IMG/VR virus record: IMGVR_UViG_3300046455_000467
Location: 1-28,270 of that record
Length of the DNA: 28,270 bases
From: a virus
Reading direction: 5' to 3' (one strand)
Positions 11,868 through 28,270 of this stretch are shown here, piece after piece. Under the pieces are notes generated by a model that saw only the letters and a program-made list of their open reading frames with translations, was not told the DNA's origin and did no database searches. Every line of letters begins with the position of its first letter. Within the stretch, counting starts at the first letter, position 1. The translations under genes and the position numbers were made by a program.

Positions 11868-11900
11868 GGCGAGCACCGCAGTGCCCAGGCCGGGAAGGGA

Positions 11901-12332: not shown

Positions 12333-12390
12333 AAAGCTCCTTCTATGGTTGAGGTTGAACTACGGGGAAATGCTTATTCTTCGCGGCCAG

Positions 12391-12841: not shown

Positions 12842-12842
12842 A

Positions 12843-12875: not shown

Positions 12876-12905
12876 TTTCATCGACAACGAACCGAGTACC
12901 CCGCC

Positions 12906-13894: not shown

Positions 13895-13899
13895 TCCCA

Positions 13900-14088: not shown

Positions 14089-14138
14089 CAACCCGCCCGG
14101 TGCGCCGGGCATCAACTTGGAGAACTGTCCCATGAGCA
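14084..14138 (+). repeat. Intergenic unit repeat 2 (hairpin + ribosome binding site)
   Basis: Second copy of the unit at 13711-13763. Here the hairpin is GCCCGG (14095-14100) and CCGGGC (14105-14110) with a TGCG loop. TTGGAGAA and CCCATGAGCA follow as in the first copy. The duplication probably arose with insertion or exchange of small gene cassettes. Confidence 0.75.
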
Positions 14139-14446
14139 CCACCATCACCCTGAAGATCAGCAAGAAAATGGCCGCGCTGCTGACCGGCATCATCCCCGAG
14201 GGCGGCACTGTCGCCGCAATCGCCGCCGAGGTCGCAGCCGGGCGCGTTGCCGCCGACGGGTCCGTGACGGTCGAAACCGAGCGCGAGAACGGCATGGCGC
14301 TACTCGGCATCGCCAAGGGCCGCATGAGCATGCTGGACGCGGCGCTGCTGTCGGCCGAAGGCCCGGACAAGCACAAGCTGCTGGGCGAGCACAGCGCATG
14401 GCGCGCGCTGGCCAAGCAGCTCCCCGAGTTCACGCCTGCCGCGTAA
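14132..14446 (+). CDS. Hypothetical protein (104 aa)
   Basis: The ATG at 14132 follows GGAG 9 bases upstream, within the second repeated intergenic unit. The sequence has a short beta start (TTITLKISKKMAALL), a central Ala/Val-rich part with VAADGSVTVETEREN, and a helical end (AWRALAKQLPEF). It is not recognised; nothing indicates membrane location or an enzyme site. The next gene starts after a single base. Confidence 0.6.
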   Translation: MSTTITLKISKKMAALLTGIIPEGGTVAAIAAEVAAGRVAADGSVTVETERENGMALLGIAKGRMSMLDAALLSAEGPDKHKLLGEHSAWRALAKQLPEFTPAA

Positions 14447-14447
14447 C

Positions 14448-14636
14448 ATGGCCGCCACCAGCTCCCCGCCCCGCCCCGACATCCACCCGTACAAGGTCGA
14501 GCAGCAGCCGGGCGGGCAATGGGCGGTCGTCAGCCCGAACCTCGGCCCGCTCCCCGAATACACCCGCGCGACCGAGGGCGAGGCCATCACCGCAGCGCTG
14601 TACTGCCGCCGCGTAGACAACCACGAAATCGACTAG
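14448..14636 (+). CDS. Small hypothetical protein (62 aa)
   Basis: Begins one base after the preceding TAA. It has the form of a small beta-beta-alpha unit: YKVEQQPGGQWAVVSPNLGP, then PEYTRATEGEAITAALYC. This resembles the short single-domain proteins frequent in phage accessory regions that resemble HicB-like or DUF-type folds, but no assignment is justified. It is probably translated by coupling, as no separate strong ribosome binding site is visible. Confidence 0.55.
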   Translation: MAATSSPPRPDIHPYKVEQQPGGQWAVVSPNLGPLPEYTRATEGEAITAALYCRRVDNHEID

Positions 14637-14666
14637 CCTGCATCCGGCCAACACGAGGAACCACCC

Positions 14667-15038
14667 ATGAACAAACCCGACGACTTCATGACCCGCCTGA
14701 CCGAATGGATGGGCCGCGATCTGACCGAGGCCGAACAGCAGCGCGCGCAGGCTATGCGCGACGACGGGCGGCCGCTCACCATCATCGGCCGCGCGCTGAA
14801 GGCCGCCGCTGTCGCTGCCGCTGCGATCACCACGCCCGAGCACATCATGCGCAAGCTGCGCCAGCGTCACGAGCTGGACGCGGACGACACCTCGCGCGAC
14901 GCCGAGCTGAACGCCCTTCTGCCGCTGCAAAAGCTGCGCCACATCGCCGCCTGGGAGATTGGCAGCCCGGACTGGGCCGACCACTTCATAACCTGGGCGA
15001 AGCAATGCGGCATCACCATCGTGGACCCGCGCGACTGA
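14667..15038 (+). CDS. Helical hypothetical protein (123 aa)
   Basis: ATG at 14667 with GAGGAA 6-7 bases upstream. It is entirely helical: an acidic/basic N-terminal part (LTEWMGRDLTEAEQQRAQAM), a short hydrophobic helix (LKAAAVAAAAIT) and a C-terminal part ending AKQCGITIVDPRD. Not recognised. It is the last gene of the promoter B cassette, 22 bases before a strong terminator. Confidence 0.6.
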   Translation: MNKPDDFMTRLTEWMGRDLTEAEQQRAQAMRDDGRPLTIIGRALKAAAVAAAAITTPEHIMRKLRQRHELDADDTSRDAELNALLPLQKLRHIAAWEIGSPDWADHFITWAKQCGITIVDPRD

Positions 15039-15060
15039 CCCGCACCACCCCAGCCACAAG

Positions 15061-15085
15061 GCCCGCCGCGAGCGGGCTTTTTTTT
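15061..15085 (+). terminator. Intrinsic terminator ending the promoter B cassette
   Basis: GCCCGC (15061-15066), 5-base loop, GCGGGC (15072-15077), then eight T's. Promoter C begins 5 bases downstream, so the cassettes are insulated back to back. Confidence 0.92.
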
Positions 15086-15089
15086 CCTC

Positions 15090-15130
15090 TTGACGAATCA
15101 AATTGTGAGCGCGTACAATCCGATTCATCA
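15090..15130 (+). promoter_or_regulatory. Palindromic lac-operator-like promoter, copy C
   Basis: TTGACG (15090-15095), 18-bp spacer, TACAAT (15114-15119). The arms TGACGAATCAAATTGT (15091-15106) and its partner (15115-15130) match at 13 of 16 positions around the same GAGCGCGT centre. The leader that follows contains GCGGCGCAC, as in copy D. It drives the cassette 15170-18462. Confidence 0.88.
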
Positions 15131-15169
15131 GCGGCGCACGGTGCGCAGCGCATAACCCGGAGAATGACT

Positions 15170-15445
15170 ATGAAGCTCGAAACCTACCTCGCCAAACAGG
15201 GCTACATCACCTACGTCAGCGAAGGCGACGACGTGTTCGAGGGCGAGGACGGCCAGCGCAACATCGAAATCTACGAGAGCCGCGATGACATCGAGCCTAT
15301 CGGCTGGTTCGTGTCGCTGCCGGGGCGCGCTGAGCTGGAGTGGCGCAACATTTTCGGCAAGGTCACCACCGGCACCATGTTCACCGAGGCCGAGGCCAAA
15401 GCCGCCGCCAAGGCCCACAAGTTCTACCCGATCACCTCGAAGTAA
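15170..15445 (+). CDS. Hypothetical protein, first gene after promoter C (91 aa)
   Basis: The second of two close ATGs (15170) is chosen because GGAG ends 7 bases upstream; the ATG at 15164 would be too close. The product is small and soluble with an acidic middle (YVSEGDDVFEGEDGQRNIEI), a beta segment around GWFVSLPG, and a helical end (TEAEAKAAAKAHKF). Not recognised. Its place right behind a strong controlled promoter predicts high early expression. Confidence 0.65.
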   Translation: MKLETYLAKQGYITYVSEGDDVFEGEDGQRNIEIYESRDDIEPIGWFVSLPGRAELEWRNIFGKVTTGTMFTEAEAKAAAKAHKFYPITSK

Positions 15446-15447
15446 CC

Positions 15448-15660
15448 ATGCGCGCCACTCCGCACCGCTTCACGCCTGGGGCGTACAGCGCCACCGACCC
15501 GGCGAACGGCCGCATGTACACCGTACAGGGCGACAGGATTGAGCGGCACCACTACCGGCACGGCCGCGTCACGCTGGTGCTGGTTGACCCGGCCGCAAGC
15601 CCGGAGCTGGCCGCCCGTATCATGGCGGCCATCGAAACCACCACCACGAAAGAAGCATGA
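15448..15660 (+). CDS. Hypothetical protein (70 aa)
   Basis: The ATG at 15448 is 2 bases after the previous stop. Basic and beta-rich: FTPGAYSATDPANGRMYTV, then RIERHHYRHGRVTLVLVD, with a helical end (ELAARIMAAIETT). No family is recognised. The stop overlaps the next ATG, so translation is coupled on that side. Confidence 0.6.
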   Translation: MRATPHRFTPGAYSATDPANGRMYTVQGDRIERHHYRHGRVTLVLVDPAASPELAARIMAAIETTTTKEA

Positions 15661-15857
15661 TCATGAGCAGAGGCATCAATCGCAAGTATTCCGCAGGCGT
15701 GAAATGCAACGCTTCGGGCTCTGACTTCTATAGCTACGCAGCGGGCTCGCCTGATGCCGACGGCCGAGCGGCCTGCCCGATGTGCGGCAAGCGCGTGAAG
15801 CTGCGCGAGGTGCGGACATACATCAAGAGCTGGCTCATACCGGCGCATAACACCTAA
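15657..15857 (+). CDS. Small basic protein with CPMC zinc-type motif (66 aa)
   Basis: Starts in an ATGA overlap (a second ATG lies at 15663). The pattern GINRKYSAGVKCNASGSDFY, then AACPMCGKRVKLREV and IPAHNT, is one I recognise as recurring in small phage proteins, though without an assigned function. Cys16-type and CPMC cysteines may form a zinc site; the basic charge suggests nucleic-acid or host-protein binding. A 104-bp gap with a possible promoter follows. Confidence 0.65.
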   Translation: MIMSRGINRKYSAGVKCNASGSDFYSYAAGSPDADGRAACPMCGKRVKLREVRTYIKSWLIPAHNT

Positions 15858-15908
15858 AACGACCGCTTTTGTACACGGCTTGCAACACCGAACAGAACCT
15901 AGCCTATT

Positions 15909-15931
15909 TCTTTCTGGACACCCGCTATAAT
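15909..15931 (+). promoter_or_regulatory. Possible secondary promoter (consensus -10, weak -35)
   Basis: The 104-bp gap 15858-15961 contains a perfect TATAAT (15926-15931), but no hexamer like TTGACA stands 16-18 bases upstream. It could be a promoter dependent on an activator, allowing separate control of the gene set 15962-18462. Confidence 0.4.
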
Positions 15932-15961
15932 TCGCACACCCATTTAGGACACAAGGACCAA

Positions 15962-16354
15962 ATGAACACCGCCACCCACCAACAAGAGGCCACCGAAACG
16001 CGCCTCGACAATGCCCTCTGGCTGCTGATGCAGTTCCCAATCCATCGCTACCTGATGAGCTGCGCGCACGGCCGCTGGGATGGCGCGGAAAAGGCTACCC
16101 GCCACATCGAGCTGTGCAGCATCGTGGTAGCGGTCGAGCACGGCTGCATCAACCTTGACGAAGCCCGCCTCGAACACTTGGACGACTACCGCGCCGTGCA
16201 TGAGAGCACCCAAAGGCTGACCGACAACATGGACGAGGTAATCGGGTTCCCGCTCGAATCGGACCCGGATTACGACGTGCTCGCCCCGATGTTCTTCGAC
16301 TGGTTCATGCGCTATGCGCGCGAGGCCATCGCCGCTACTGGGAGCGCAGCATGA
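15962..16354 (+). CDS. Hypothetical helical protein (130 aa)
   Basis: The ATG at 15962 is preceded by AAGGA. The protein is helical with aromatic and acidic patches: DNALWLLMQFPIHRYLMS, then HIELCSIVVAVEHGC, and an acidic end (DPDYDVLAPMFFDWFMRYA). It does not look transmembrane. No family is recognised. Its stop overlaps the DUF2786 gene (ATGA), so they are translated together. Confidence 0.6.
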   Translation: MNTATHQQEATETRLDNALWLLMQFPIHRYLMSCAHGRWDGAEKATRHIELCSIVVAVEHGCINLDEARLEHLDDYRAVHESTQRLTDNMDEVIGFPLESDPDYDVLAPMFFDWFMRYAREAIAATGSAA

Positions 16355-16899
16355 GCGCCGTCAGCGAAGCGCTGATGCGCCGCATTGGCAAGATCAAGGA
16401 GCTGGCCGAGCGCGGCGTCGATGGCGAGAAGGCCGCCGCCCAGTCGATGCTGGAAAAAATTCTGGTGAAGCACGGCCTGACGCTGGCCGATATTGAGGGC
16501 AAGCCCAAGCGCGAGTGGGTCGAGCTGACATTCTCTGGCGAGTATGAAAAGCTGCTGCTGACCCAAATTGTCCGCAAGGCGGCAGGGGTGAGCGGCGATC
16601 TGGTGTACCGCTGGAAGAAGGGCACCCGGACGCGCATCAAGTTCGAGCTGTCCCCGGTCGAGCACGTCGAGGTCGAATTTATGTTCGAGCTGATGAAAAA
16701 GGCGCTGGCCGATGAATTCAGCAAGGTGCTGTCCGCCTTCATCCACACGAATAGGCTGTTTGGCCCGAGCGTCGAGGATGACGAGGACGACAAGGACGAG
16801 CCCGAGAAAACCCCTGAGGAGCGCGCCCGCCTGCGCCAGATTGCGGCGATGATGAGCGTGATGAGCCCGGTCAAGGTGCATAAGGCCATCGAGCAATGA
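16351..16899 (+). CDS. DUF2786 domain protein (182 aa)
   Basis: Residues about 7-48 match the DUF2786 pattern: LMRRIGKIKELAERG, then EKAAAQSMLEKILVKHGL and LADIE. DUF2786 is a short helical domain found at the start of phage, plasmid and bacterial proteins of unknown role. The rest has a mixed fold with KLLLTQIVRKAAGVSGD and a beta part (RIKFELSPVEHVEVEFMFEL), then an acidic, probably flexible stretch (VEDDEDDKDEPEK) and a helical end. Possible binding to nucleic acid or DNA-associated proteins is inference. Coupled to both neighbours by ATGA overlaps. Confidence 0.75.
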   Translation: MSAVSEALMRRIGKIKELAERGVDGEKAAAQSMLEKILVKHGLTLADIEGKPKREWVELTFSGEYEKLLLTQIVRKAAGVSGDLVYRWKKGTRTRIKFELSPVEHVEVEFMFELMKKALADEFSKVLSAFIHTNRLFGPSVEDDEDDKDEPEKTPEERARLRQIAAMMSVMSPVKVHKAIEQ

Positions 16900-17111
16900 G
16901 ACTTTGCGCGATCCTGCACGGCGAAGGCATGGGCAGCCCGCCTGACGAAAACGGCTGCCATCTGCCAGCCAACCACGGCGGCCAGCCGCATGAGTACGTC
17001 GCCACCGATGGCCGCACCTATCAATGGGAAACCGACCTCGCCTGCGACTGCGACCACTGTATGCGTTGCGAGGGCGACTACTGCACTACCTACTGGGAAA
17101 AGGAACTATGA
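16896..17111 (+). CDS. Cys-rich small protein (71 aa)
   Basis: Start in an ATGA overlap. The C-terminal third contains a dense Cys cluster, CDCDHCMRC, followed by another Cys near YC; with His residues in the N-terminal part (HLPANHGGQPHEY) this suggests a metal-binding mini-protein. It is acidic overall, so direct DNA binding is less likely than for the basic zinc-ribbon genes nearby. No family assigned. Confidence 0.6.
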   Translation: MRLCAILHGEGMGSPPDENGCHLPANHGGQPHEYVATDGRTYQWETDLACDCDHCMRCEGDYCTTYWEKEL

Positions 17112-17851
17112 GCGACAACACAAATTGCAAGGGCGCTTTCCGCGCATTCTATGATGGCGAAATCGAAATCCCTACGCGCCCCGCCCGCGTATGCGTCAGC
17201 CCCTTGGCTACCCGCCCGGTCCTGTACACGGACACCGTGGGCGGCGTGCAAACCTGCCGCGATGACCTGTGGGCCATCACCACCGACGAGCTGAACGCGC
17301 TGGCCGCCCCGGACGCGCTGGCCGCCGTCGAGCACCACACCTACGGCAGCATCGCCGAGCGCATGACTGGCAAGCACCGCGATGACAGCGGCACCGTGTA
17401 CGTCACCCTGGCCGATGCCGAGGCGGCCGTGCGCGCCGTGGCGAGCACCAGCACGGCATGGCGGCAGACCGCCGAAACCAAGGACCGGCAGGCCGCCGAG
17501 GTGCGCGCGCACCTCCAGCAGACCCGCATGGCGCTGCGCTGGGCGCTGGAATGGATTGACGCCGTGCCGGGCGATACCCCGCTGCCGACCATGCCCGGCT
17601 TCGACCGCGACTACGTGAACGTCCTGCTTGATACCCCGACCACCTCCGCACGCCCGGCCATCGGCACCGAAGAACAGGCCGATGCAATGCTGGCGGACCT
17701 GACCCGCGAGTACCACCAGCGCGCTGCCCCGATCCTCAAGATTCTGACGACCTTTGCAGCGTTGCGTCCGCCCCCACCCATGCTCATATCGCGCGAGCAT
17801 GCCGAGCGCTTGGGCTTCACGCCGTCCAACCTGCCGGGAGAGCCAGAGTGA
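17108..17851 (+). CDS. Hypothetical protein with central coiled-coil-like helix (247 aa)
   Basis: The ATG at 17108 overlaps the previous stop; the longer upstream frame is discarded. The N-terminal part is mixed alpha/beta, followed by Ala/Arg/Glu-rich helices ([13 protein letters not shown], then [20 protein letters not shown]). The end has a helical segment and a Pro-rich tail ([10 protein letters not shown]). No known motif. It directly precedes and overlaps the serine recombinase gene, so it may be an accessory factor for it, but this is context only. Confidence 0.6.
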
Positions 17852-18462
17852 GCCGCGTATTCGCCTACTGCCGGGTATCGACCGGCGACCAGACCACCGA
17901 GAACCAGATTGCCGAGATTGCGGGGGCAGGGTTCGCCATCGACGCCAAGCGCGCCATTGCCGAGACTATCAGCGGCTCCGTGGCCGCGACCGAGCGCCCC
18001 GGCTTCACGAAACTGCTGGACCGCCTGGAGCCCGGCGACGTGCTCGTGGTAACGAAGCTGGACCGCCTGGGCCGCAACGCGATGGACTTGCGCGCCACCG
18101 TGTCCAACCTTGAGCGCGCGGGAATTCGCGTGCATTGCCTCGCGCTGGGCGGCATGGACCTCACCAGCCCGGCCGGGAAGATGACGATGGGCGTTATCGC
18201 GGCCGTTGCCGAGTTCGAGCGGGACTTGCTCATCGAGCGCACGAACGCGGGCCTTGCGCGGGCCAAGAAAGACGGCAAGCGCTTCGGCCGCCCGCCTGCA
18301 CTGGACGAGGATGCACGCGGCATGGCGCGGGCTATGCTGGCCGCTGGCGTGCCTGTCTCCGAAGTCGCCCGCGACCTGAACACCTCCCGCGCCACCATCA
18401 TCCGGGCGCGCGATTCCGTACCGCTGCCGCCCGCTCCCGAGCCCGGCCAGCTCGCCGCCTGA
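17848..18462 (+). CDS. Small serine recombinase (resolvase/invertase family, 204 aa)
   Basis: Family signature at the N-terminus: [10 protein letters not shown] with the catalytic Ser11, then KLDRLGRN (70-77) with the conserved Arg73 and Arg76. A long helix around [11 protein letters not shown] is the dimer/E-helix region, followed by [10 protein letters not shown] and a C-terminal helix-turn-helix ([19 protein letters not shown] with SRATIIRAR). The size is that of Tn3-type resolvases and Hin/Gin-type invertases, not of large serine integrases. It cuts DNA at paired sites through a 5'-phosphoserine link. Its sites were not identified. It ends the promoter C cassette; the start overlaps the previous stop. 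Confidence 0.93.
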
Positions 18463-18467
18463 CCACC

Positions 18468-18491
18468 GCCCGGCACGTCCGGGCTTTTTTT
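18468..18491 (+). terminator. Intrinsic terminator after the serine recombinase
   Basis: GCCCGG (18468-18473), CACGT loop, CCGGGC (18479-18484), seven T's. Promoter D begins 27 bases downstream, repeating the terminator-promoter boundary seen at 15061-15130. Confidence 0.9.
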
Positions 18492-18517
18492 CGTGTCGCG
18501 TCACGATTAAATCACGC

Positions 18518-18558
18518 TTGACGAATCGAATTGTGAGCGCGTACACTGCGAAGCATCA
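18518..18558 (+). promoter_or_regulatory. Lac-operator-like promoter, copy D (right arm degenerate)
   Basis: TTGACG (18518-18523), 18-bp spacer, TACACT (18542-18547). The left half matches copies A-C exactly over AATTGTGAGCGCGTACA, but the right arm pairs at only 11 of 16 positions and the -10 deviates from TACAAT. It may be weaker or less tightly controlled. It drives the cassette 18596-20009. Confidence 0.82.
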
Positions 18559-18595
18559 GCGGCGCACTGGGCGCGGCGACACCGGACGAAAGATC

Positions 18596-18736
18596 ATGAG
18601 CGCATCGAGCATCAAGGAAATGATGGACAACTGGGCCAAGACCGAGGCGGACGCCCGCGCTGCCAACCCTGACGCCAGCGACGAACAGATTTACCAGATG
18701 ACCGCCGACGCGATGAGCAAATCGCTGGGCCTGTAA
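18596..18736 (+). CDS. Small acidic hypothetical protein (46 aa)
   Basis: The ATG at 18596 follows promoter D and a GGAC/GAAAG region; the frame extending into the promoter is discarded. It is helical: SSIKEMMDNWAKTEADARAA, then DASDEQIYQMTADAMSKSLG. First gene of the promoter D cassette. No family is recognised. Confidence 0.6.
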   Translation: MSASSIKEMMDNWAKTEADARAANPDASDEQIYQMTADAMSKSLGL

Positions 18737-18758
18737 CGACAACAACGGAGAAATGACC

Positions 18759-19457
18759 ATGCTGAAAAATGAAATCCTGAACGTAGATGGCACGAACTGG
18801 CTGATCCGCGAGGCCACCAATTACGACGAGGTTCACAACGCTATCGCAGCGGCGCGAGTCACCGGCAGCATCGGCGGCAGGCATGCCGAGCGACTCGGCG
18901 ACGGCCCGGTAACGGTGCTTGCCGACGTGGTGCGCCTGAACGACGATGGCACCGAATGCCTGCCCTACGGCGAGAAGGGCGGCACCGACCATAGCGCCCT
19001 CGTCGCCCTCGCCAAGCTCCGCGCCGACTACGACCAGCTCGGCCGCGCCCTGAATCAAGCGAACCTGCGCAACCGCGTGTATGCCGGTGCGCTCGCGCAG
19101 ATCGACGCATGGGTTACGGCCGCCGATCCGTGCTACCACGAAGCCGAATTCCTGCGCACCATCATCACCAAGGAAATCACCGAGGCGCACGCCACCATCG
19201 CCGAGGCGCGAGCCGCCGCGAAGCAAGGGCAGCAGCTCGCGCCTACCGATCTGCTGGTGCTCGCCCCCGAGGCGCGCGGCCTGGACCTGAACGATTCCGC
19301 CGACCGCGAGCACTTCCGCGTCCGTGTCGCCCTCCGACTGCAAGGCTATGCCATCGAAGTGATCCGCCGCTGGGTGAGTAACCCGGCGCGCGACCGCGAC
19401 ACCATCGTGCGCGCCATCGCTGACGCCTATATCGCGCACGCCTGCGCCGCCAAATAA
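18759..19457 (+). CDS. Hypothetical accessory protein (232 aa)
   Basis: The second of two close ATGs (18759) is preferred, as GGAG ends 8 bases upstream; the ATG at 18753 is only 2 bases from it. The N-terminal part is mixed (NVDGTNWLIREATNYDEV), with GGRHAERLGDGPVTVLADVV. The centre is helical and carries RADYDQLGRALNQANL, and the end is helical and Ala-rich. The arrangement of a short beta domain plus long helix is common in phage accessory proteins, but no function is known to me. Confidence 0.65.
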   Translation: MLKNEILNVDGTNWLIREATNYDEVHNAIAAARVTGSIGGRHAERLGDGPVTVLADVVRLNDDGTECLPYGEKGGTDHSALVALAKLRADYDQLGRALNQANLRNRVYAGALAQIDAWVTAADPCYHEAEFLRTIITKEITEAHATIAEARAAAKQGQQLAPTDLLVLAPEARGLDLNDSADREHFRVRVALRLQGYAIEVIRRWVSNPARDRDTIVRAIADAYIAHACAAK

Positions 19458-19484
19458 CCGCCATACCCACTACGGAGAACTACC

Positions 19485-19784
19485 ATGAGCCAATCTTGCC
19501 CCCGCTGCTACAAGATCGTAGCCCGCGCCTGCCAGTCCGAAACCGAATCGGCCGAGTGCCGCGAGCTACGCAATCAGCGCCCCCTGGAAAAGTCCAATGA
19601 GTACAGCGTCACCATCGGCGAACGCCTGTTCACTGCGAAACGCAGCGGCCCGGACGCCGCATGGCAGGTGGACTATCCCGAGGGCGGTTTCCAGCGCCAC
19701 GGCACCAAGAGCGAAGTCGCCAACCTGATCCGCGCCAAAGCGCGCGAGCTGGCCGCCGCTGACGCCGAGGCCGACGCCTCCTGA
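19485..19784 (+). CDS. Hypothetical protein with CPRC motif (99 aa)
   Basis: ATG at 19485 with GGAG 7-8 bases upstream. The start SQSCPRCYKIVARACQ has three Cys, a possible metal knuckle; another Cys follows in AECREL. After that comes a beta-rich unit (EYSVTIGERLFTAKRSG, then AWQVDYPEGGFQRHGT) and a helix (EVANLIRAKARELAAA). Not assigned to a family. Confidence 0.6.
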   Translation: MSQSCPRCYKIVARACQSETESAECRELRNQRPLEKSNEYSVTIGERLFTAKRSGPDAAWQVDYPEGGFQRHGTKSEVANLIRAKARELAAADAEADAS

Positions 19785-19796
19785 CCAGGGGAACTC

Positions 19797-20009
19797 ATGA
19801 AAACAGAAGATACCTACATCGTCCACCAGTCGCCTAAACAGAGCTGCCGCGCGGCGCTGGCCCACATCATCGTGATTGTTGACGCCAGCTCAAAGAAGGA
19901 GGCCATCGAAAAGGCCAGCACCCCGGAAGGAGGTATCAACGCCTCCGACAAGGACTACAAGAAACCCATAGCTGACAAGGTGCATAAGGGCGGCGTCTAC
20001 CACCTGTAG
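19797..20009 (+). CDS. Hypothetical protein (70 aa)
   Basis: ATG at 19797 with GGGGA upstream. The sequence alternates beta and helical parts: TYIVHQSPKQSCRAALAHII, then DASSKKEAIEKAS and KVHKGGVYHL. Lys-rich and slightly less GC-rich than its neighbours. Last gene of the promoter D cassette, followed by a terminator. No known family. Confidence 0.6.
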   Translation: MKTEDTYIVHQSPKQSCRAALAHIIVIVDASSKKEAIEKASTPEGGINASDKDYKKPIADKVHKGGVYHL

Positions 20010-20033
20010 ACCAGCCCGCCCCGCGTCACCCAT

Positions 20034-20054
20034 GCCCGCCCCGAGCGGGCTTTT
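20034..20054 (+). terminator. Intrinsic terminator ending the promoter D cassette
   Basis: GCCCGC (20034-20039), CCCGA loop, GCGGGC (20045-20050), four T's. It is weaker than the other cassette terminators because the U-tract is short, so read-through into the last accessory genes is plausible. Confidence 0.8.
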
Positions 20055-20064
20055 CCCGTAGAAG

Positions 20065-20090
20065 GCGGCGCACTTAGGCGCGGCCACCAC
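20065..20090 (+). other. Promoterless copy of the cassette leader sequence
   Basis: GCGGCGCAC followed by a GGCGCGGC stretch and CAC here matches the leaders after promoters A, C and D (for example 18559-18580). No TTGACG/TACAAT pair lies upstream; the terminator occupies that place. It looks like the remains of a fifth cassette boundary that lost its promoter. Confidence 0.6.
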
Positions 20091-20105
20091 TCAAGGAAAT
20101 GACCG

Positions 20106-20897
20106 ATGGCTGAATTCATCAATCAACACGTCGAGCCGCCGCTGGATGGCTTCAACGCAATGGGGAAGCCGATCCCGGCCGATCAGCGCCAGCACGGCTA
20201 TGACACTTGCAAGGAAATGGGCCTCGACTCGGCGCGCGCCTGGGAGTGCGTCAATGCGACTGCCGAACAGCTCGAACGCGACAAGCCGCACGAGGCCCAG
20301 GGCGCGGCCATGAAGTTCCTCGACCTGACCGGCGCGTATCGCCTCATGGCGGTGCTGCTGACCAAGGCAGGTGAACAGATCAAGCCTGTCGGCCGCAATG
20401 CCGATCTGCGCGACGGTACGACCATTCGCGACGGCGAGGGCAAGCAGTACCGCGTGCATTACATGCGCAACAGCCTGATCGTCGCGCATCCTATTGTGGA
20501 CGGCAAGGCGCAGGTAAGCCGCGATACCACGGTTCGGTTCTGGACCGACCCCGATATGCCGACAGCGGGAGAGAACGACCGCACCGATCCAGTGTACGTC
20601 GTCAGCCCGCCCACTGCCCCGGCGACGAAGCCCCGCCGCGAGGCTACCGCGCGCATGCTCCGCGACTACCCGAAGGTGCAAACTGTCTGGCTGGTCGAAG
20701 TTCCGCACACGAACGGCCGCACCAAGCAATACAAGGCCACCACCTACCCGGATAGCGAGCTGATCTTCCTCGAATCGTCGCCGCGCGGCCGGGCCATCGC
20801 CGCAGGCAACACGAAGAACCTGCTGCCCGCCGTCCGCGAGGCCATCGCCAAGGCGCGCACCGCCACCACCCAGGAACCCACCGGAGAACCGCAATGA
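20106..20897 (+). CDS. Hypothetical protein, two-domain look (263 aa)
   Basis: ATG at 20106 with AAGGA upstream. The N-terminal half is helical: GYDTCKEMGLDSARAWECVN, then a segment with DKPHEAQGAAMKF. It is followed by a beta part (KQYRVHYMRNSLIVAHPIVD). The C-terminal half has VQTVWLVEVPHTNGRTKQY and LIFLESSPRGRAIAAGNTK, then a helix. No catalytic motif is evident. It has no visible promoter of its own and probably depends on read-through of the preceding weak terminator. Overlaps the next gene by ATGA. Confidence 0.65.
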   Translation: MAEFINQHVEPPLDGFNAMGKPIPADQRQHGYDTCKEMGLDSARAWECVNATAEQLERDKPHEAQGAAMKFLDLTGAYRLMAVLLTKAGEQIKPVGRNADLRDGTTIRDGEGKQYRVHYMRNSLIVAHPIVDGKAQVSRDTTVRFWTDPDMPTAGENDRTDPVYVVSPPTAPATKPRREATARMLRDYPKVQTVWLVEVPHTNGRTKQYKATTYPDSELIFLESSPRGRAIAAGNTKNLLPAVREAIAKARTATTQEPTGEPQ

Positions 20898-21502
20898 CCA
20901 CCGACCGAGAGCGCGACGACCAGCACACCGCCCTTGTGCTGGCTGCTGAGACAGCCCTGACCAGCGCCGAGCGCGCAACATTCCTTTCCCGCTTCGACCG
21001 CTCGCAAGCAGGCGCGAGCGTCGCCGATGTTCTCGACACGCTGCACAGCAATGATTCCAACATCGAACTGGTGGAGCAGCTTGCCGAGCGCCACGGCAAC
21101 CAAGTGCCCGAGCCGGGCCTACTCGCCGTCGCTATCCAGATCGCGAACCAACTGGACTATCAAGGCTTGTTCATGCGGCCGTGGGAAACCCTAGAACCGC
21201 TCATCGAGCGCATCCGGCCGCTGCTGGGCCTGCCCTCCTGGGAGCTGCGCATTGAAAGGGAAAAGCGCGACAAGCTGGAGCTGCTGGCCCCGCTGGGCTT
21301 CGAGGACTATGACGACGGCGAGCAACCCGGTGCGATCTGGCACCCGCTGATCGGCAACATCAACTACGGCAGCGTCCGACTGGACAACGTGATCGACCTC
21401 GCGTTCAAGGCCGGGCAGCAGCAGGGCATGAGCGAGCTGCGCGCCAAGTTCCGCGCCCTGCTCGATGTCGCCCCGGCACCGCGCCCCGAGGACGGCCAAT
21501 GA
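20894..21502 (+). CDS. Hypothetical protein (202 aa)
   Basis: Start in an ATGA overlap. Helical N-terminal half (TALTSAERATFLSRFDRSQA, then VEQLAERHGNQVPEPG), a middle with ETLEPLIERIRPLLGLPSWE and a Glu/Asp-rich, Tyr-containing stretch (FEDYDDGEQPGAIWHPL), and a helical end. No Cys cluster or membrane segment. Function and family unknown; coupled on both sides. Confidence 0.6.
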   Translation: MTTDRERDDQHTALVLAAETALTSAERATFLSRFDRSQAGASVADVLDTLHSNDSNIELVEQLAERHGNQVPEPGLLAVAIQIANQLDYQGLFMRPWETLEPLIERIRPLLGLPSWELRIEREKRDKLELLAPLGFEDYDDGEQPGAIWHPLIGNINYGSVRLDNVIDLAFKAGQQQGMSELRAKFRALLDVAPAPRPEDGQ

Positions 21503-21747
21503 GGATCGACGCGCGATTCAACAAGCGGACGGCCGATCAGGTCGAAGTCGCCACGCCAGCGGTGCAGGCCGGGCCGCAGTACGAGCTGGGCATGCGCGTG
21601 ATGTTCTTCGCGACGAACGGCAGCGACAAGGGCCAGCTCGCCGCGAACATGAGCCCGATGGAGGCGCTGGCGTTCGCCGCCGAGCTGGTGACGACTGCCA
21701 CCCGGCAACTGAAATACGAACAGGAGCGGGCCGCAAAAGCGAAATAG
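21499..21747 (+). CDS. Small hypothetical protein, last gene of accessory region (82 aa)
   Basis: Start in an ATGA overlap. A beta part (RIDARFNKRTADQVEVAT, then YELGMRVMFFATNGSDKG) is followed by a helix (SPMEALAFAAELVTTATRQL) and a Lys-rich end. It closes the rightward series; a strong terminator follows 17 bases later and the convergent T6SS-type genes begin about 100 bases beyond. Not recognised. Confidence 0.6.
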   Translation: MRIDARFNKRTADQVEVATPAVQAGPQYELGMRVMFFATNGSDKGQLAANMSPMEALAFAAELVTTATRQLKYEQERAAKAK

Positions 21748-21764
21748 CCCCGCAGACCCCGCCA

Positions 21765-21788
21765 GCCCGCGCCCAGCGGGCTTTTTTT
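21765..21788 (+). terminator. Strong intrinsic terminator ending the rightward region
   Basis: GCCCGC (21765-21770), GCCCA loop, GCGGGC (21776-21781), seven T's. It isolates the accessory genes from the convergent leftward unit whose last gene ends at 21854. Confidence 0.92.
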
Positions 21789-21853: not shown

Positions 21854-22342
21854 CTACTCCAGCGGCCAGAACCACGCCTCTTTGCTGGTCCAGTAGCAGT
21901 CATTCCCGCAGGCCAGCTCCCCAGCCCCGCCGAGCTGCGGCGAAATTATGTCGATGTGGCCGCCCTCATAGAGCCCCGGAATCAGGTGGAAGAACGACAC
22001 GATGCCGCTGCGCCGCCCTATCAGCTCCGCAATTGCCGGGCCACTCCCGGCCTTCTCAGGATTGCCGAGCATTAAGGGGCGCGCAAGGATATGGGACAGC
22101 TTGATCTGCCCAGGCTCGATCATCTTGCCCTTGTGCGTCCCGGCCCTCACCTGTAGCCGTCCGTCAGGAATGTGGACGCCGGAACGCAGCAGTGCGAGGC
22201 TGGCTCGGATCGCGCAGGTATCGTGATAGGCCGGGTTTGGAATCAGGTCATCCCATCCGAGCTGGTGGAACAGCACCTCTCGGCTAATGTCGCGCCTGCG
22301 CGGGTACGCCTGCATCAGAACGGGGAACGGAATGGATCGCAT
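21854..22342 (-). CDS. tae4: Tae4-like T6SS peptidoglycan amidase effector (162 aa)
   Basis: ATG at 22342 with a near-perfect GGAGG ribosome binding site, 2 bases after the immunity gene. The pattern of the Tae4 (NlpC/P60-type Cys-His) amidases is visible: PAYHDTCAIRASLAL with the putative nucleophile Cys43, RSGIVSFF (111-118), GGHIDI with His129 and Asp131, and a C-terminus with CGNDCYW and WFWPL. Tae4 enzymes cleave the D-Glu-mDAP bond in peptidoglycan stems. No signal peptide, as expected for a T6SS cargo or for an endolysin needing a holin. Context with hcp and an immunity protein favours the T6SS effector role; a lysis enzyme is the alternative. No other muralytic enzyme was seen in this window. 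Confidence 0.82.
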   Translation of the reverse strand: MRSIPFPVLMQAYPRRRDISREVLFHQLGWDDLIPNPAYHDTCAIRASLALLRSGVHIPDGRLQVRAGTHKGKMIEPGQIKLSHILARPLMLGNPEKAGSGPAIAELIGRRSGIVSFFHLIPGLYEGGHIDIISPQLGGAGELACGNDCYWTSKEAWFWPLE

Positions 22343-22344
22343 CG

Positions 22345-22752
22345 CTACCTCCGCGCAGGACAGGGGAATCGGGCGATATAGAGGCGCACCAGCTCGGCGG
22401 CGGCGCTTCTCGGCATGGTGCCCGCCCGCTGACGCAGCTCGTCCCAAATCCGGTCATCTACCTCGCCGGGCTTCATTCCAGGCGGCGCGCACCAGAGCCG
22501 CCCTTGCGTCGCATCGACCACGCCCGCCTGATAGCCTTCGGCGTAGCGCTGCGCATAGGCTGCGTCCGGGCGCTGATGCCACTTGTCCACGCCCGGCTGA
22601 CCAGATACCTGCGCCACGAAATCATTACCGGAGAGGTGCCAGGGGAATACAACCAGCGGGCTCGCGGCAGCGTAGGCGGCAGCCACAACGATGCTCAGCA
22701 CCACGACACCCCGCACGGACCTCCTGCGGCGCAATGTGCCGGGCCGCATCAT
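22345..22752 (-). CDS. Rap1a/Tai-family immunity protein (135 aa)
   Basis: The ATG at 22752 overlaps the hcp stop (ATGA). An Arg-rich start and hydrophobic segment (VRGVVVLSIVVAAAYAAAS, about 13-31) are a signal peptide or membrane anchor, placing the rest in the periplasm. The C-terminal domain has the Rap1a/Tai pattern: RYAEGYQAGVVDA (69-81), Cys88, a helix and LVRLYIARFPC with Cys131, the two Cys likely forming the conserved disulfide. Rap1a proteins neutralise Tae4-family amidases in Serratia; Tai4 is the equivalent in other species. It lies directly upstream of the Tae4-like gene, so it should protect the producer from that enzyme. Confidence 0.82.
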   Translation of the reverse strand: MMRPGTLRRRRSVRGVVVLSIVVAAAYAAASPLVVFPWHLSGNDFVAQVSGQPGVDKWHQRPDAAYAQRYAEGYQAGVVDATQGRLWCAPPGMKPGEVDDRIWDELRQRAGTMPRSAAAELVRLYIARFPCPARR

Positions 22753-23240
22753 GCCACCCTGTTCGCTGACAAGTCCCAGCCGCCCGCCGTATTGCCGCCC
22801 GCGCCGCCCGTAATCTTCTGCATGCAATACTTCCACTTGACCTTGCCGAACTTGAGGCCGATATGCTCCTGCATCACGTCGCCACCGTTGACGCCCTGCG
22901 CCACCGATGCGATCAGCACGTTCTCCAGCTCGACCTCGTAGTATTTGACCCGCGTTCCGCTGCCGTCCGCGCGCATGAATTCGAGCTTGGCCTTCGGGAT
23001 CGTCTTGCCCATCGCGCAATGCTGGGCCAGTATCGGCGATGCGAGGTCCGCCGCCTTGTTGATGCTTACCTCTGTGAATTCGACTCGCTCGGCCGTGTGG
23101 CCGCCCGCCGTCGAGCTGGTCGCGCTCTTGGGCTGGGATAGCGCCCAGTTCACCGAACTACACTCGATCCAGCCCTTATGCGCATCGTCGCTCGACTCGC
23201 CCTTGATGCCCTCGACCTGCAAATACACGTCTATCGCCAT
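22749..23240 (-). CDS. hcp: Hcp-family type VI secretion protein (163 aa)
   Basis: ATG at 23240 with a perfect AGGAGG 6 bases upstream, preferred to the in-frame ATG at 23258. Near-canonical Hcp signatures: MAIDVYLQVEGIKGES at the start, HKGWIEC, TAGGHTAERVEF (44-55), KTIPKAKLEFMRADGSG (79-95), EVELENVLI (102-110) and GGAGGNTAGGWDL (145-157). Length is normal for Hcp. Hcp hexamers stack into the T6SS inner tube and chaperone effectors in their lumen; it is homologous to phage tail tube proteins but this sequence is of the T6SS type. No other T6SS core gene is in the window, so it would serve a host T6SS or be a recruited phage protein. First gene of the three-gene unit. Confidence 0.92.
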   Translation of the reverse strand: MAIDVYLQVEGIKGESSDDAHKGWIECSSVNWALSQPKSATSSTAGGHTAERVEFTEVSINKAADLASPILAQHCAMGKTIPKAKLEFMRADGSGTRVKYYEVELENVLIASVAQGVNGGDVMQEHIGLKFGKVKWKYCMQKITGGAGGNTAGGWDLSANRVA

Positions 23241-23326: not shown

Positions 23327-23363
23327 AAAAGCAAAGGCCCGACTGTCTCTCAACAATCGGGCC
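23327..23363 (-). terminator. Strong terminator in the hcp leader
   Basis: On the minus strand GGCCCGA (23363-23357) and TCGGGCC (23342-23336) pair, and the stem extends inward (TTGT with ACAG, one G-U pair) to 11 bp with a 6-base loop, followed by TTTGCTTTT. It lies between the hcp promoter and the hcp start. A competing hairpin (CGGGC 23371-23367 with GCCCG 23362-23358, CGAG loop) uses part of the 5' arm, so the two structures exclude each other. Confidence 0.85.
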
Positions 23364-23404
23364 TCGGCCCGGCCGCCACCCGACGACCTCATGGGCTATG
23401 CCCG
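23327..23404 (-). ncRNA. Candidate leader/small RNA upstream of hcp
   Basis: A promoter with predicted start near 23404 and a strong terminator at 23327 would define an RNA of about 78 nt. It may be a stand-alone small RNA or the attenuated leader of hcp. Predicted from the order of signals only; there is no coding frame with a ribosome binding site in it. Confidence 0.4.
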
Positions 23405-24109: not shown

Positions 24110-24495
24110 GCGGCCTCCAGCGGTAGCGGGAGCTGGTCGCCGGGCTGCTGCCGGGCTTCGATGGCCGCCAGGAAGTGCGCGGAGTCGGCCCGCCTGTATT
24201 CCCACAAGCGCGCGTGCTGCGGGTAGCGCACGGCGAACGCGCGCGCCAGATCGGGAGCCATGTGGTCATTGATCTTGAAGCTGCACGCCCCGGCCTCGCG
24301 CAACCGGGTGTAGTGCCTGATTTCCTCCACGATGGTGCGGGCTGAGAAATGCGTCCACCCGGCCGCGATGAGGTCGAGCGTTTGGCGCTCGAACTGCTGC
24401 CAGATCGGGTCATTGATGCCCAGCCAGTCCAGAAATTCGGGACGGAAGTAGGCCGCGAACGGCAGCAGATCATCATTGCGGTTCGGGTCCGTCAT
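24106..24495 (-). CDS. Conserved phage protein downstream of terminase (129 aa)
   Basis: The ATG at 24495 overlaps the terminase stop and has GGAGG upstream; the longer frame is discarded. The pattern FAAYFRPEFLDWLGIND, then IWQQFERQTLDLIAAGWTHF and SARTIVEEIRHYTRL, KINDHMAPDLARAFA, belongs to a widespread group of phage proteins of unknown function. It ends in a small Leu/Pro-rich tail. Position in the packaging operon hints at a DNA-related role but does not prove it. Confidence 0.75.
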   Translation of the reverse strand: MTDPNRNDDLLPFAAYFRPEFLDWLGINDPIWQQFERQTLDLIAAGWTHFSARTIVEEIRHYTRLREAGACSFKINDHMAPDLARAFAVRYPQHARLWEYRRADSAHFLAAIEARQQPGDQLPLPLEAA

Positions 24496-26051
24496 GCGGC
24501 CTCCTGATCGAGCGGGGTGCCGTCCGGCTTCATCCCCATAGATGCCATGAGCTTTGCGCGGGCCTCGTCCTTGGCGCTGCCGTCGTTGGCCGCTTCCTCG
24601 CCCGCGAGGTTGTAGTAGGCGTCCTCCAGATAGGCGAACGACAGCGAATCCCATATGTCCGGCGACGGGATGCCCTCTTTGCGCATATCCTCTTTCTTGG
24701 CGATGTAGCGGCGGGCCTTCTCGTCGTAGTGGTACGGGATGCGCGAGCCTTCGCGCACGATCTGCTTGACGATGGCCGGGTCAATCCCCTCATCAATGCC
24801 GAATCGGCCCTCCTGCACGGCGCGGGACAGGCCGCAGATCGCTTGCGCGCGCTGGTTCGCATAGCGGTCCTTGTATTCCTTCTTGAAGTTCGGGATGCCC
24901 CAGTTCACTTTCTTGAAGTTGTGGAAGTCGGCCTTTTCGAGCTGCTTGCAAACGCCCAGGCCGATACCGCCCGCGTCCACCAGCGCCATGCTGTTGTTGA
25001 GCTGGCCCGCCTCGGTGATGATCCGGCCTGGGAGGTCGGACACATCCTGATCGTTCGAGCACACCGGCACCTTGACGAGCTGGACGCGGCGCGCGTTGTC
25101 GCCATACTCGCCGTCACCCGTCACCTTCAGCGCCAGCACCACGCTCTTGTCGCGGTAGCCGCCACCGCCCACGTCCACCGGCAGCAGCCACCCGAACGGC
25201 TCATCCGGGCGCACGGCGATGAGGCCGACGCATGCCTGAATGGCCTTTGGACCCAGCAGGTACTTGCTCGACTGCTCACTGAAGCGGCCCAGCACCTTGA
25301 TGTCGAATTCCTCGGGGGTGTACTGCTTCTTTTTCTCGGCAACAAATTCCTCGGACACGATAGGCGAGTCCGCCGAGCTGAATACCAGGGAGTTCCACGA
25401 TCCGCCCTCGGCCTTCGACAGCGTATGGTGCGTGTCGTAGAAGAACCCGGACGAGCGGGTAGGCTGCGACGCGATACACATGCGGTTGCGCTTGTCCGTC
25501 AACGCCCCGGTGATAACCCCGAAATTGGCGTCAGGCACGCCCGAGGCTTCGTCAACGAGGAACAGCAGCCAGTCGCGGTGAGCGCCCGCAAGGTTCTCAG
25601 GCGAGCCGCGCGGCGCGGTCTTGGCGACGATCCACCATGACAGCTTGAAGCCCTTCACGAATACGCGCTCGGCCTGCACCTCGAAATACTCGGCAATCCA
25701 TGCGTGCGGGCCGCTCTTGATCTTGCCCATCAGGTCGGCGAACTCTTTCCATACGCCGTCAGAAACAGTCGTCAGCTTCGGGGCGGATAGGATCGTGTTG
25801 CTGTTGTGATAGCAAAGCAGGTGCCACAGGCCGATGATGCCGTAGCCTGCGGTCTTGCCGGTGCCGTGGCCGGACGAAATCGAGGTGCGGGAACCCGGCT
25901 CCTGCACGCTCTCGAACATTTCCCATTGCTGATGGGTCGGGATGGTGCGGCACACCTCAATGGCGAACCTGGGGAGGTCGTAGGCGTAGCGCTTGGCGAA
26001 TTCCGTGTAGCGCGGGTCTTGCAGCAGAGTGAGCTTCGATGTTGCGGCCAC
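24492..26051 (-). CDS. terL: Terminase large subunit (519 aa)
   Basis: Start taken at GTG 26051 with GAGG upstream. The ATPase domain has Walker A SGHGTGKT (60-67) and Walker B LLFLVDEAS (162-170, Asp167/Glu168), then SQPTRSSG near 195-202. The C-terminal RNase H-like nuclease has its acidic residues in PVDVGGGGYRDKS (Asp293), MALVDAGGIGLG (Asp359) and SPDIWDSLSFAY (Asp465/Asp468). Complete for the family. It cuts and translocates phage DNA into proheads. It follows the small subunit after 4 bases and overlaps the next gene. Confidence 0.95.
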   Translation of the reverse strand: MAATSKLTLLQDPRYTEFAKRYAYDLPRFAIEVCRTIPTHQQWEMFESVQEPGSRTSISSGHGTGKTAGYGIIGLWHLLCYHNSNTILSAPKLTTVSDGVWKEFADLMGKIKSGPHAWIAEYFEVQAERVFVKGFKLSWWIVAKTAPRGSPENLAGAHRDWLLFLVDEASGVPDANFGVITGALTDKRNRMCIASQPTRSSGFFYDTHHTLSKAEGGSWNSLVFSSADSPIVSEEFVAEKKKQYTPEEFDIKVLGRFSEQSSKYLLGPKAIQACVGLIAVRPDEPFGWLLPVDVGGGGYRDKSVVLALKVTGDGEYGDNARRVQLVKVPVCSNDQDVSDLPGRIITEAGQLNNSMALVDAGGIGLGVCKQLEKADFHNFKKVNWGIPNFKKEYKDRYANQRAQAICGLSRAVQEGRFGIDEGIDPAIVKQIVREGSRIPYHYDEKARRYIAKKEDMRKEGIPSPDIWDSLSFAYLEDAYYNLAGEEAANDGSAKDEARAKLMASMGMKPDGTPLDQEAA

Positions 26052-26055: not shown

Positions 26056-26943
26056 TCACTCCCTCACATCCACGTCCACGGCATCGGCAGCACGGCGCTG
26101 GCGCTCCAGCACCTTCCTGCGGTTCTCCTGCATCTGCGCGTAACCGGCCGCGTAGAAGTCGTCCAGCTCGGCGGTCGATGCCATCGTGTGCGTAATCTCG
26201 CCGGTCGTTTCAACCTGATCCTTCCAGCCCGCGAGGTTCTTGGTAGCAAACACGGCAAAGCGCGGCTCATATACACCAGACATCCCGCCCTCAACCAGCA
26301 GACTTTCCTGGGCGTCCCTCGCGCGCGCGTATGCGTAAGAAAATTCCGGGCGCTTGAGGGCTCCAGCTTGGTCTTTTTCGGTTGCCCAGTCGTGAAGCGT
26401 CTGCCGGGTAACGCCGATCTTGGCGGCGAAGCGCGTCAGGGTCGGGAACGTGTTGACGACGAGCTTCTGTTCGGTTCGGGTCTTGCCGTCCTTGTCCACC
26501 ACGTCCACGTCTACAACCCGCTGCACCTCTATGTCGAAGTAGGAAATCAGCTCGGCGACGAACTCGGGGCGGTACTCACTTGGGCGGCCGACAGGGCGAC
26601 GGCCGAGGGCCAGCGCCAAGTCCCGTTGGGACAGGCCAGAGGCTCCTGCAGGGGGTTCTTCCGCAGGGTGCGGAGGTGCCTTTTCTTCCCCCTTGGCCGA
26701 AACTTTCGGGGTCTTGGTAGTCGAAACTTTCGGGCGCGGCGAAACTTTCGGGGCTTCGTCTTGTTTCGGTGCCTGGGAGGCGCTTTCCCCTCCCCTCGTC
26801 CAGCCCTCACGCTCGGCAGTCTTGCTCACCGCGACGCGGCTGCACCCGAACTTGTCGGCGACCGTCTGGAACGATACGCTGGCGTCGCCGCCCTCCCACA
26901 TTGCGCGGGCTTCCGCCCACTGCTCTTTGCTCAACCGTGCCAT
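26056..26943 (-). CDS. terS: Terminase small subunit / DNA-packaging protein (295 aa)
   Basis: ATG at 26943. The N-terminal helix-turn-helix (about 6-46: FQTVADKFGCSRVAVSKTAE) is followed by a low-complexity linker with PKVS repeats (about 63-84) and a second domain with GRPSEYRPEFVAELISYF, then TLTRFAAKIGVTRQTLHDWA (second helix-turn-helix) and YARARDAQESLL, ending in a charged helix. This fits terminase small subunits that recognise the packaging site. Directly upstream of terL. The linker DNA carries three copies of an 11-bp palindrome. Confidence 0.85.
   Translation of the reverse strand: MARLSKEQWAEARAMWEGGDASVSFQTVADKFGCSRVAVSKTAEREGWTRGGESASQAPKQDEAPKVSPRPKVSTTKTPKVSAKGEEKAPPHPAEEPPAGASGLSQRDLALALGRRPVGRPSEYRPEFVAELISYFDIEVQRVVDVDVVDKDGKTRTEQKLVVNTFPTLTRFAAKIGVTRQTLHDWATEKDQAGALKRPEFSYAYARARDAQESLLVEGGMSGVYEPRFAVFATKNLAGWKDQVETTGEITHTMASTAELDDFYAAGYAQMQENRRKVLERQRRAADAVDVDVRE
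26698..26750. repeat. Three CGAAACTTTCG palindromes inside terS
   Basis: Exact copies at 26698-26708, 26722-26732 and 26740-26750 (start-to-start 24 and 18 bp); a fourth lies at 27529-27539 in the XRE gene. They encode the PKVS repeats of the TerS linker but share more sequence than the amino acids require. Such repeats within terS could be the packaging recognition (pac) site. Confidence 0.65.
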
Positions 26944-27173: not shown

Positions 27174-27871
27174 CAGAACAGGTCCAGTTGCGGGATGAAC
27201 GAGGCGAGCGGGCCTTCCTTCCCCTTGGCGATGGCAAGGCAGTGTTCCTCGATCAGCGCGCGGCGGTTGCTTGACTCCTTCAGCGGGATCATGGCCGCCT
27301 CCAGGCGCTCCACGGCGGCGGTCAGCTTGGTCCCGGCGCGCAGCTCTTCCCAGGCGGCCGGATTCAGCTCTTGCACGCGGCCCAGCGCATCGTTCACGGC
27401 CTCGGCAGCGACGGTGACGGCCTGAAGGTCCACGCGGGCGACGGCGCGTTCGCTCCCGTAGCGGACAAACGCCTCGGTCATCGCCGTAACCTGCGACTGG
27501 ACGAGCTGCTCGAAGCCCCGGAACATGGCGAAACTTTCGGCCGCGACCGGATCGCGCTCCGGGTGCGGGGAAATACCCATCAGGTAGTCCACCGACACGG
27601 AGTACGCCTTGCTCATGTTCAGCAGGAACTTCCAGTCATCGGGCACCTTGCGCTCGCCGCTCTCGATCTGGCTGAGCTGGGTCGAGTTCTTGTAGCCGAG
27701 GCGCTGGGCCGCCTCTACAGCGGTCAGGCCATTCATCACGCGCGCCGAAACCATCCGTTCGCGCATCAGCTCCCTCTCGCGCGGCACGTCCTTGTTGCGC
27801 ACGAAGCGCTTGGACGGGGCGCTTGGCACGCCTTCCAGCGCAATGGTGACGACTTCCTCGGTGTTGCTCAT
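27173..27871 (-). CDS. XRE-family (Cro/CI-type HTH) regulator (232 aa)
   Basis: The ATG at 27871 overlaps the DUF1367 stop (ATGA). A Cro/CI helix-turn-helix domain spans about residues 36-100: RERMVSARVMNGLTAVEAA, QRLGYKNSTQLSQIESGERK and SKAYSVSVDYLMGI. The rest is a long alpha-helical region with coiled-coil tendency, no LexA/CI-type Ala-Gly cleavage site or Ser-Lys dyad visible, so it is not a classical self-cleaving repressor. It lies in the packaging operon rather than next to the divergent control region. Targets unknown; the palindromic promoters and CGAAACTTTCG sites are candidates. Confidence 0.85.
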   Translation of the reverse strand: MSNTEEVVTIALEGVPSAPSKRFVRNKDVPRERELMRERMVSARVMNGLTAVEAAQRLGYKNSTQLSQIESGERKVPDDWKFLLNMSKAYSVSVDYLMGISPHPERDPVAAESFAMFRGFEQLVQSQVTAMTEAFVRYGSERAVARVDLQAVTVAAEAVNDALGRVQELNPAAWEELRAGTKLTAAVERLEAAMIPLKESSNRRALIEEHCLAIAKGKEGPLASFIPQLDLF

Positions 27872-28270
27872 ACCATCCCCAGTATTTGATTAACGTAGTT
27901 GTCCAAATTCGCCCGATTTTGGTAATGGGCCAGTATCTTTTGCAGCAGAACGTCGGCGACAGCGCTATACAGGCGCTCGAAGTCCTCGGGCTTCATGCGG
28001 CCAAAGCTGATCGACTTGGCCTTGACGCGCATATCGCCGTTGATGCGGTAGGTAACGGTGAAGAACCCGGCCGCGATGGTCACGTCCTCGCGGAACTGTT
28101 CAAAGTCCTTCTGCACCGGGAAGCCCTTGTATTCGCCCTGGGGCGGGTTGAACGCATCGAATCCGACGCGCAGCAGGGCGAAGAACTTCCGGTGGAACAT
28201 CGGGTTGCGCACCTGCTTGACCTCGGCGCGCACCAGCACGCCCTGTTTGATCTTGGCGATCTTCTCGGCC
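27868..28270 (-). CDS. DUF1367 phage protein, C-terminal part (runs off right edge)
   Basis: The frame is open to the right edge, so the N-terminus is missing. Readable pattern: EKIAKIKQGVLVRAEV, VRNPMFHRKFFALLRVGFDA, VTIAAGFFTVTYRINGDM and AKSISFGRMKPEDFERLYSA, which is typical of DUF1367. These proteins are usual in the nin-like/replication regions of temperate-type phages; function unknown. The stop overlaps the start of the XRE gene, so it is part of the same leftward operon. Confidence 0.85.
   Translation of the reverse strand, partial: AEKIAKIKQGVLVRAEVKQVRNPMFHRKFFALLRVGFDAFNPPQGEYKGFPVQKDFEQFREDVTIAAGFFTVTYRINGDMRVKAKSISFGRMKPEDFERLYSAVADVLLQKILAHYQNRANLDNYVNQILGMV

Follow-up and report, generated by a model that had tools for sequence, protein, structure and literature searches.

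The window analysed here, the whole of the IMG/VR soil-virus record IMGVR_UViG_3300046455_000467 (28,270 nucleotides), harbors a compact cassette of three minus-strand genes in the order hcp, rap1a/tai4, and tae4 (Table 1). The hcp stop codon overlaps the rap1a start in an ATGA motif, and only 2 bases separate rap1a from tae4, which bears out the tight coupling described in an earlier sequence-only reading of this DNA. On one side of the cassette, positions 5346-21747 are filled by a long series of small early ORFs that includes a serine resolvase gene; on the other lie the terminase genes. The latter had been described as directly upstream; they are indeed upstream, but 1.25 kb away, with three small ORFs in between. 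A hairpin ahead of hcp may act as an insulator between the terminase operon and the cassette, although the promoter and terminator pattern scan of the window stays at chance level, with hits no commoner than in shuffled sequences. Searches of the window for RNA families and tRNAs gave none. The GC content is even (0.61-0.69), so base composition shows no sign of recent import.

Table 1. Features of the 28,270-nucleotide window, in window coordinates.
Feature	Position	Strand	Basis and remarks
Tail fibre protein, incomplete at window end	1-543	-	phrog_3737, 1.7e-34
Baseplate protein, contractile tail	3305-4735	-	phrog_1369, 8e-112
Serine resolvase/invertase family protein	17848-18462	+	NCBIfam matches below cut-offs; syntenic resolvase in pBVIE05
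Terminator-like hairpin with T-run	21764-21782	+	Closes the early genes that converge on the cassette, directly past the tae4 end; suggestive only
tae4, predicted peptidoglycan amidase effector	21854-22342	-	162 aa; PF14113; by sequence and model; without signal peptide
tai4/rap1a, predicted immunity protein	22345-22752	-	135 aa; PF18602; N-terminal signal peptide or anchor
hcp (tssD), T6SS tube ring, proposed effector carrier and chaperone	22749-23240	-	163 aa; PF05638, TIGR03344, and PDB Hcp matches
Terminator-like hairpin, 14 pairs	23334-23365	-	Upstream of hcp; pattern scan at shuffle level, suggestive only
Three small ORFs	24495-23554		Between TerL and hcp
Terminase large subunit TerL, PacB-like (P1 group)	24492-26051	-	phrog_2
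Terminase small subunit TerS	26056-26943	-	phrog_3064, 3e-20
DUF1367/NinB-like recombination protein	27868-28270	-	PF07105, phrog_319; continues beyond window end

All three proteins score above their Pfam cut-offs, in agreement with the Hcp, Rap1a/Tai-type, and Tae4-like identities first assigned to them. Hcp matches PF05638 over its full length (1.5e-39, 135.7 bits; cut-off 23.5), TIGR03344 (9.2e-23, 81 bits; cut-off 58.9), and the Hcp structures 7FCF (6e-38) and 4W64 (2e-35). Its closest relative (83%), from Massilia norwichensis, is likewise encoded beside a Tae4 gene.

Tae4 is a predicted peptidoglycan amidase/endopeptidase that matches PF14113 (5.4e-10, 39.9 bits; cut-off 27) as well as Agrobacterium Tae4 (6IJF, 2e-30) and Serratia Ssp1 (4BI3, 8e-26). 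Cys43 aligns with the catalytic Cys50 of Ssp1; this residue and His129 are conserved, and the Cys and His columns are invariant in 10 relatives. A single-chain AlphaFold model (pLDDT 87) fits the known Tae4 structures, with a TM score of 0.85 to 6IJF. Named phages yielded no Tae4, and a search of the viral structure library with the model returned no match.

Tai4, the predicted cognate inhibitor, shares the operon with tae4, has a hydrophobic N-terminus, and matches PF18602 (1.9e-15, 57.5 bits; cut-off 27.7), Tai4 (6IJE/6IJF, 4e-6), and Rap1a (4BI8, 1e-3). Toxin and antidote thus each match one chain of a single solved Tae4–Tai4 complex, 6IJF. Families, fold, and catalytic Cys are common to the window pair and the known Tae4–Tai4 and Ssp1–Rap1a pairs (6IJF, 4BI3, 4BI8, 4HFK); the known pairs, however, come from bacterial genomes, while this one is carried by a phage together with its own hcp.

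Sequence comparison matches the window, at 99.99-100% identity, to parts of a longer record of 85,481 bases in which 127 bases recur at both ends. Since the window bridges these ends, the genome closes into a circle of about 85.35 kb. With terminase on one side of the cassette and positions 1-4735 occupied by genes for tail fibre and baseplate, the closed genome confirms the proposed location within a phage; the flanks are phage DNA and not a chromosomal T6SS island. It further encodes P1-type head genes, a portal, ParA, replication proteins, and antirestriction proteins. A very large protein of the same phage (at least 1,667 aa; L101:2-5236), with methyltransferase, helicase, and DarB-like matches, is likely an antirestriction factor.

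TerL is 33-34% identical to P1/D6 PacB, 41% to its counterpart in Xanthomonas phage Rb1, and 66% to that of plasmid pBVIE05; a search for the window phage among named phages found only distant PacB-like terminases. It has the hallmarks of a P1-like phage: (i) a PacB-like terminase, (ii) P1-type head genes, (iii) a contractile tail, (iv) partition genes, and (v) a circular genome. It is probably a P1-like phage-plasmid, plasmid maintenance being suggested by ParA and by pBVIE05 (Burkholderia vietnamiensis G4, 88 kb), in which the terminase and early region are syntenic with those of the window phage. The annotation of the 17.5 kb of pBVIE05 examined lists neither hcp nor tae4, and the plasmid as a whole gives no Tae4 match. 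The cassette is a probable phage moron, set between phage modules.

The cassette has the composition of an auxiliary T6SS cluster: a carrier hcp, an effector, and an immunity gene are present, while the core machine is absent from the window and the related viral records. TssC/VipB was sought in the window, the closed genome, and 31 other related viral records and found in none (0/33), consistent with the early impression that no further T6SS gene is present. Because the phage carries the kit but no secretion machine, the machine that fires its toxin is probably that of its host.

Tail tube, endolysin, and holin genes, sought in the rest of the genome, are all present. The tail genes include two tube matches (phrog_1120, 6e-46; phrog_1842, 6e-18), a sheath, and a baseplate, and lysis is served by a holin, an endolysin, and a spanin, which makes a role for the cassette in either process unlikely. 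Hcp is homologous to tail tube proteins and the phage tail is contractile, two points in favor of the earlier suggestion that Hcp replaces or joins the tail tube. This suggestion is now disfavored and very improbable given the phage's own tube and sheath, the occurrence of the cassette in phages with another tail (contig G009, tape measure of the phrog_2854 type) and on chromosomes without phage genes, and the tendency of Hcp to track cargo on its tree. The companion suggestion is that the phage lyses its host with Tae4 and that Tai4, as a brake in the periplasm, sets the time of lysis. In its favor are the peptidoglycan-cleaving activity of the Tae4 family, its presence in a phage, and the proximity of the cassette to lysis genes in other phages. 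It is highly unlikely in view of the separate holin–endolysin–spanin set and of the endolysins in the other phages checked. Moreover, Hcp has no lysis role, the hcp slot elsewhere is filled by unrelated enzymes, every one paired with a partner of its own, and a brake that inhibits the phage's own lysin in the periplasm would have no release step.

The unit is not confined to one phage. Scans of viral contigs, followed by tabulation, place hcp in 31 of them, some of which are close kin, so that the 31 do not all count as independent events. PHROGs confirm terminases, sheath, integrase, and endolysins in these relatives. Tae4 is the cargo in 20 of the 31, one of which has a second hcp with a BPSL0067-type enzyme. 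The others encode an M74 murein endopeptidase (3), a BPSL0067-type enzyme alone (4), a small membrane protein (1), or a YkuD-like protein (1), and in 2 the contig ends before the cargo can be read. BPSL0067-type enzymes are accompanied, where tested, by a STY0301-family partner. At about 140-180 aa, the effectors are small; they are devoid of export signals, and those partners that were read from sequence begin with signal peptides. A small signal-less effector with an exported partner is the usual pattern of T6SS effectors that act in the target periplasm.

Two of the rarer cargoes are read from short features. At L205:6001-6907, the gene after a frameshifted hcp encodes a 140-aa protein that bears the motif SHGCVRL, a YkuD-like L,D-transpeptidase by motif only. 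At L015:2022-2623, hcp precedes the genes for a 142-aa protein, parts of which are hydrophobic, and for a small membrane protein, a possible pair of membrane-acting effector and immunity protein. Exactly one Hcp is encoded in each of 16 related viral records tested. A record found later, IMGVR_UViG_3300037423_000480 (L191/L202, 78.5 kb), has two hcp cassettes, whose respective cargoes are Tae4 and a BPSL0067-type enzyme.

Four further contigs encode Tae4 without a visible hcp, although in 2 of them the contig starts nearby. Immunity–Tae4 pairs with no hcp immediately ahead occur at L213:5639-6459, L219:397-1256, and L223:5619-6501; hcp is thus not strictly needed, and these phages may rely on the Hcp of their host. 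The occasional absence of hcp, and the precedent of AID clusters, in which immunity genes can be protective by themselves (reviewed in PMC8632748), would suit a purely defensive cassette in which Tai4 shields lysogens from the T6SSs of neighbors while hcp and tae4 hitch-hike. Such a cassette is unlikely, as hcp and effector are intact and under purifying selection in the pairs tested, the catalytic residues are invariant, and the immunity gene is accompanied by an effector in the contigs examined. Across the tested pairs of hcp, effector, and immunity genes, pN/pS lies between 0.04 and 0.45.

Two integration contexts recur among the related phages. In prophage G008, identical 42-bp repeats of a tRNA-Met 3′ end (attL 200, attR 38868) enclose hcp at 37009-37497, and in contig G004 partial tRNA-Met att copies separate integrase from hcp, the layout expected after excision; att ends were sought and not found in G012. 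The second phage group follows the order tRNA-Leu(CAA), integrase, hcp, cargo, with Tae4 in G009, M74 in G014 and G016, and BPSL0067 in L200. As different cargoes stand behind the same tRNA-Leu integrase while the adjoining Dam gene is kept (91-95% alike where compared), this is one slot with exchangeable cassettes. Similar cassettes on Massilia chromosomes raise the prospect that chromosomal DNA was misjoined to phage contigs. The 31 viral contigs that carry hcp represent several phage types, att repeats flank the G008 cassette, and two assemblies agree across the closed phage genome, which leaves such misjoining with next to no likelihood. Chromosomal contamination is accordingly rejected, given the circular closure and the att repeats.

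The hosts appear, from sequence kinship, to be Massilia-like Oxalobacteraceae that own T6SSs. The nearest cellular Hcps belong to Massilia, Janthinobacterium, Duganella, and Herbaspirillum. About forty of the 80 nearest cellular loci are core T6SS clusters in the order TssB-TssC-Hcp-TssE-ClpV, and the rest are orphan hcp loci, as assigned by gene families and judged by eye from order and sequence. Many orphan loci hold the same cargo families as the phages, and TssC is present in 15 of 16 related genomes with an orphan hcp. The chromosomal gene flanking the tRNA-Leu prophage of L200 has a 95% identical counterpart in one Massilia genus-group genome; for the window phage, we infer the host from the kinship of its Hcp and Tae4. 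Tae4 matches occur in 56 and terminase matches in 9 of 295 genomes of the “family”, a grouping that is probably GTDB-based and would then be wider than Oxalobacteraceae.

One chromosome may record how such cassettes settle. In Massilia yuzhufengensis (L088:9040-11345), a tRNA-Leu and the remains of an integrase lie beside an intact hcp-tai4-tae4. The integrase is broken by stops and covers residues 12-169 of the phage type at 62% identity. The cassette has kept its Tai4 and Tae4, whose Tai4 and Tae4 sequences are 77% and 62% identical, respectively, to those of the window. The right-hand repeat of the tRNA-Leu end was sought at this locus and not found. The arrangement has the look of a prophage that decayed around its surviving cassette.

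A tree of 90 Hcps, labeled by cargo (Tae4, M74, BPSL0067, the F21 family, or core), requires 6 cargo changes, against a mean of 45 (minimum 39) for shuffled labels. Phage/chromosome labels change 11 times among the orphan Hcps, against a shuffled mean of 23. Hcp clades in this tree thus track cargo rather than phage or chromosome; many inner branches are weak, so the result concerns clustering and not exact branching. The columns that separate Tae4-Hcps from M74-Hcps cluster at positions 27-35, 53-57, and 112-125. Position 31 aligns, by eye, with Ser31 of Pseudomonas aeruginosa Hcp1, a lumen residue required for cargo binding (PMC7043769). These alignments are suggestive of rings matched to their cargo, although the cargo-following columns may instead reflect shared ancestry.

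Taken together, the comparative evidence best supports the first of the roles originally proposed, an accessory phage-borne T6SS ammunition cassette that arms the T6SS of the host during lysogeny (probability roughly 0.85). Gene identities, operon layout, phage placement, phages without TssC, TssC in host relatives, cargo swapping, and Hcp–cargo clades are read directly from the sequences; expression in the lysogen, Hcp loading, secretion, killing, and phage benefit are what we infer. The three genes would be expressed together in the lysogen, probably with the phage maintained as a P1-like phage-plasmid. The small Tae4 would bind within rings of phage-encoded Hcp, which would be assembled into the T6SS tube that the host itself makes, and a shot would deliver Tae4 to the periplasm of neighbors and cut peptidoglycan cross-links there. 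Tai4, exported to the lysogen periplasm, would protect lysogens from one another, leaving neighbors without Tai4 open to attack. The phage is proposed to gain from the competitive edge of its carriers over non-carriers, among them sister cells from which the phage has been lost. A more tentative extension makes the cassette a contact-dependent addiction device, in which lysogens kill phage-free sisters through the host T6SS and so enforce carriage of the phage-plasmid, with warheads traded at a fixed slot. The cassette may instead be a rarely expressed passenger.

Phage carriage of VgrG-linked T6SS toxin clusters is already known. In phiRSY1-like Ralstonia phages, vgrG-linked auxiliary clusters were confirmed in phiRSY1 virions by sequencing (PMC11481896). 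Those phages resemble the present one in that a temperate phage bears a toxin–immunity cluster without a machine, by which the host is converted there and would be converted here. They differ in their VgrG link and lipase cargo, as opposed to an Hcp carrier and a small peptidoglycan enzyme, and in their Ralstonia hosts, as opposed to phages that are P1-like or integrate at tRNA genes and have Massilia-like hosts. Aux3 of Vibrio cholerae (PMC7721734) is likewise a T6SS cluster in a prophage-like element, and its reduced chromosomal remnant recalls the M. yuzhufengensis locus. It is of the VgrG3/TseH type, tailed phage particles were not detected in that study, and, unlike the Hcp cassettes, it is not described as swapping cargo at one site.

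A search of the open-access literature found no report of hcp or tae4 cassettes in phages. New features are the Hcp-based design, the P1-like carrier, the swapping of cargo at slots that stay fixed in the phages, and the tracking of cargo by Hcp clades. If the proposed role is correct, phages would be suppliers of interchangeable T6SS ammunition, each ring of the tube being passed on together with a warhead of its own, and the natural Hcp–cargo pairs provide material for asking how an Hcp ring recognizes its effector. Chromosomes appear to inherit cassettes from decayed prophages, a possible source of the orphan hcp–effector modules of Oxalobacteraceae. These modules share Hcp clades and cargo families with the phage cassettes but are chromosomal, and at least one (L088) adjoins a broken phage integrase. 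Many Massilia chromosomes (L022, L026, L029, L030, L035, L046, L052, L058, and others) carry an orphan hcp of a separate Hcp clade beside a gene of the F21 family, whose members are about 150 aa long.
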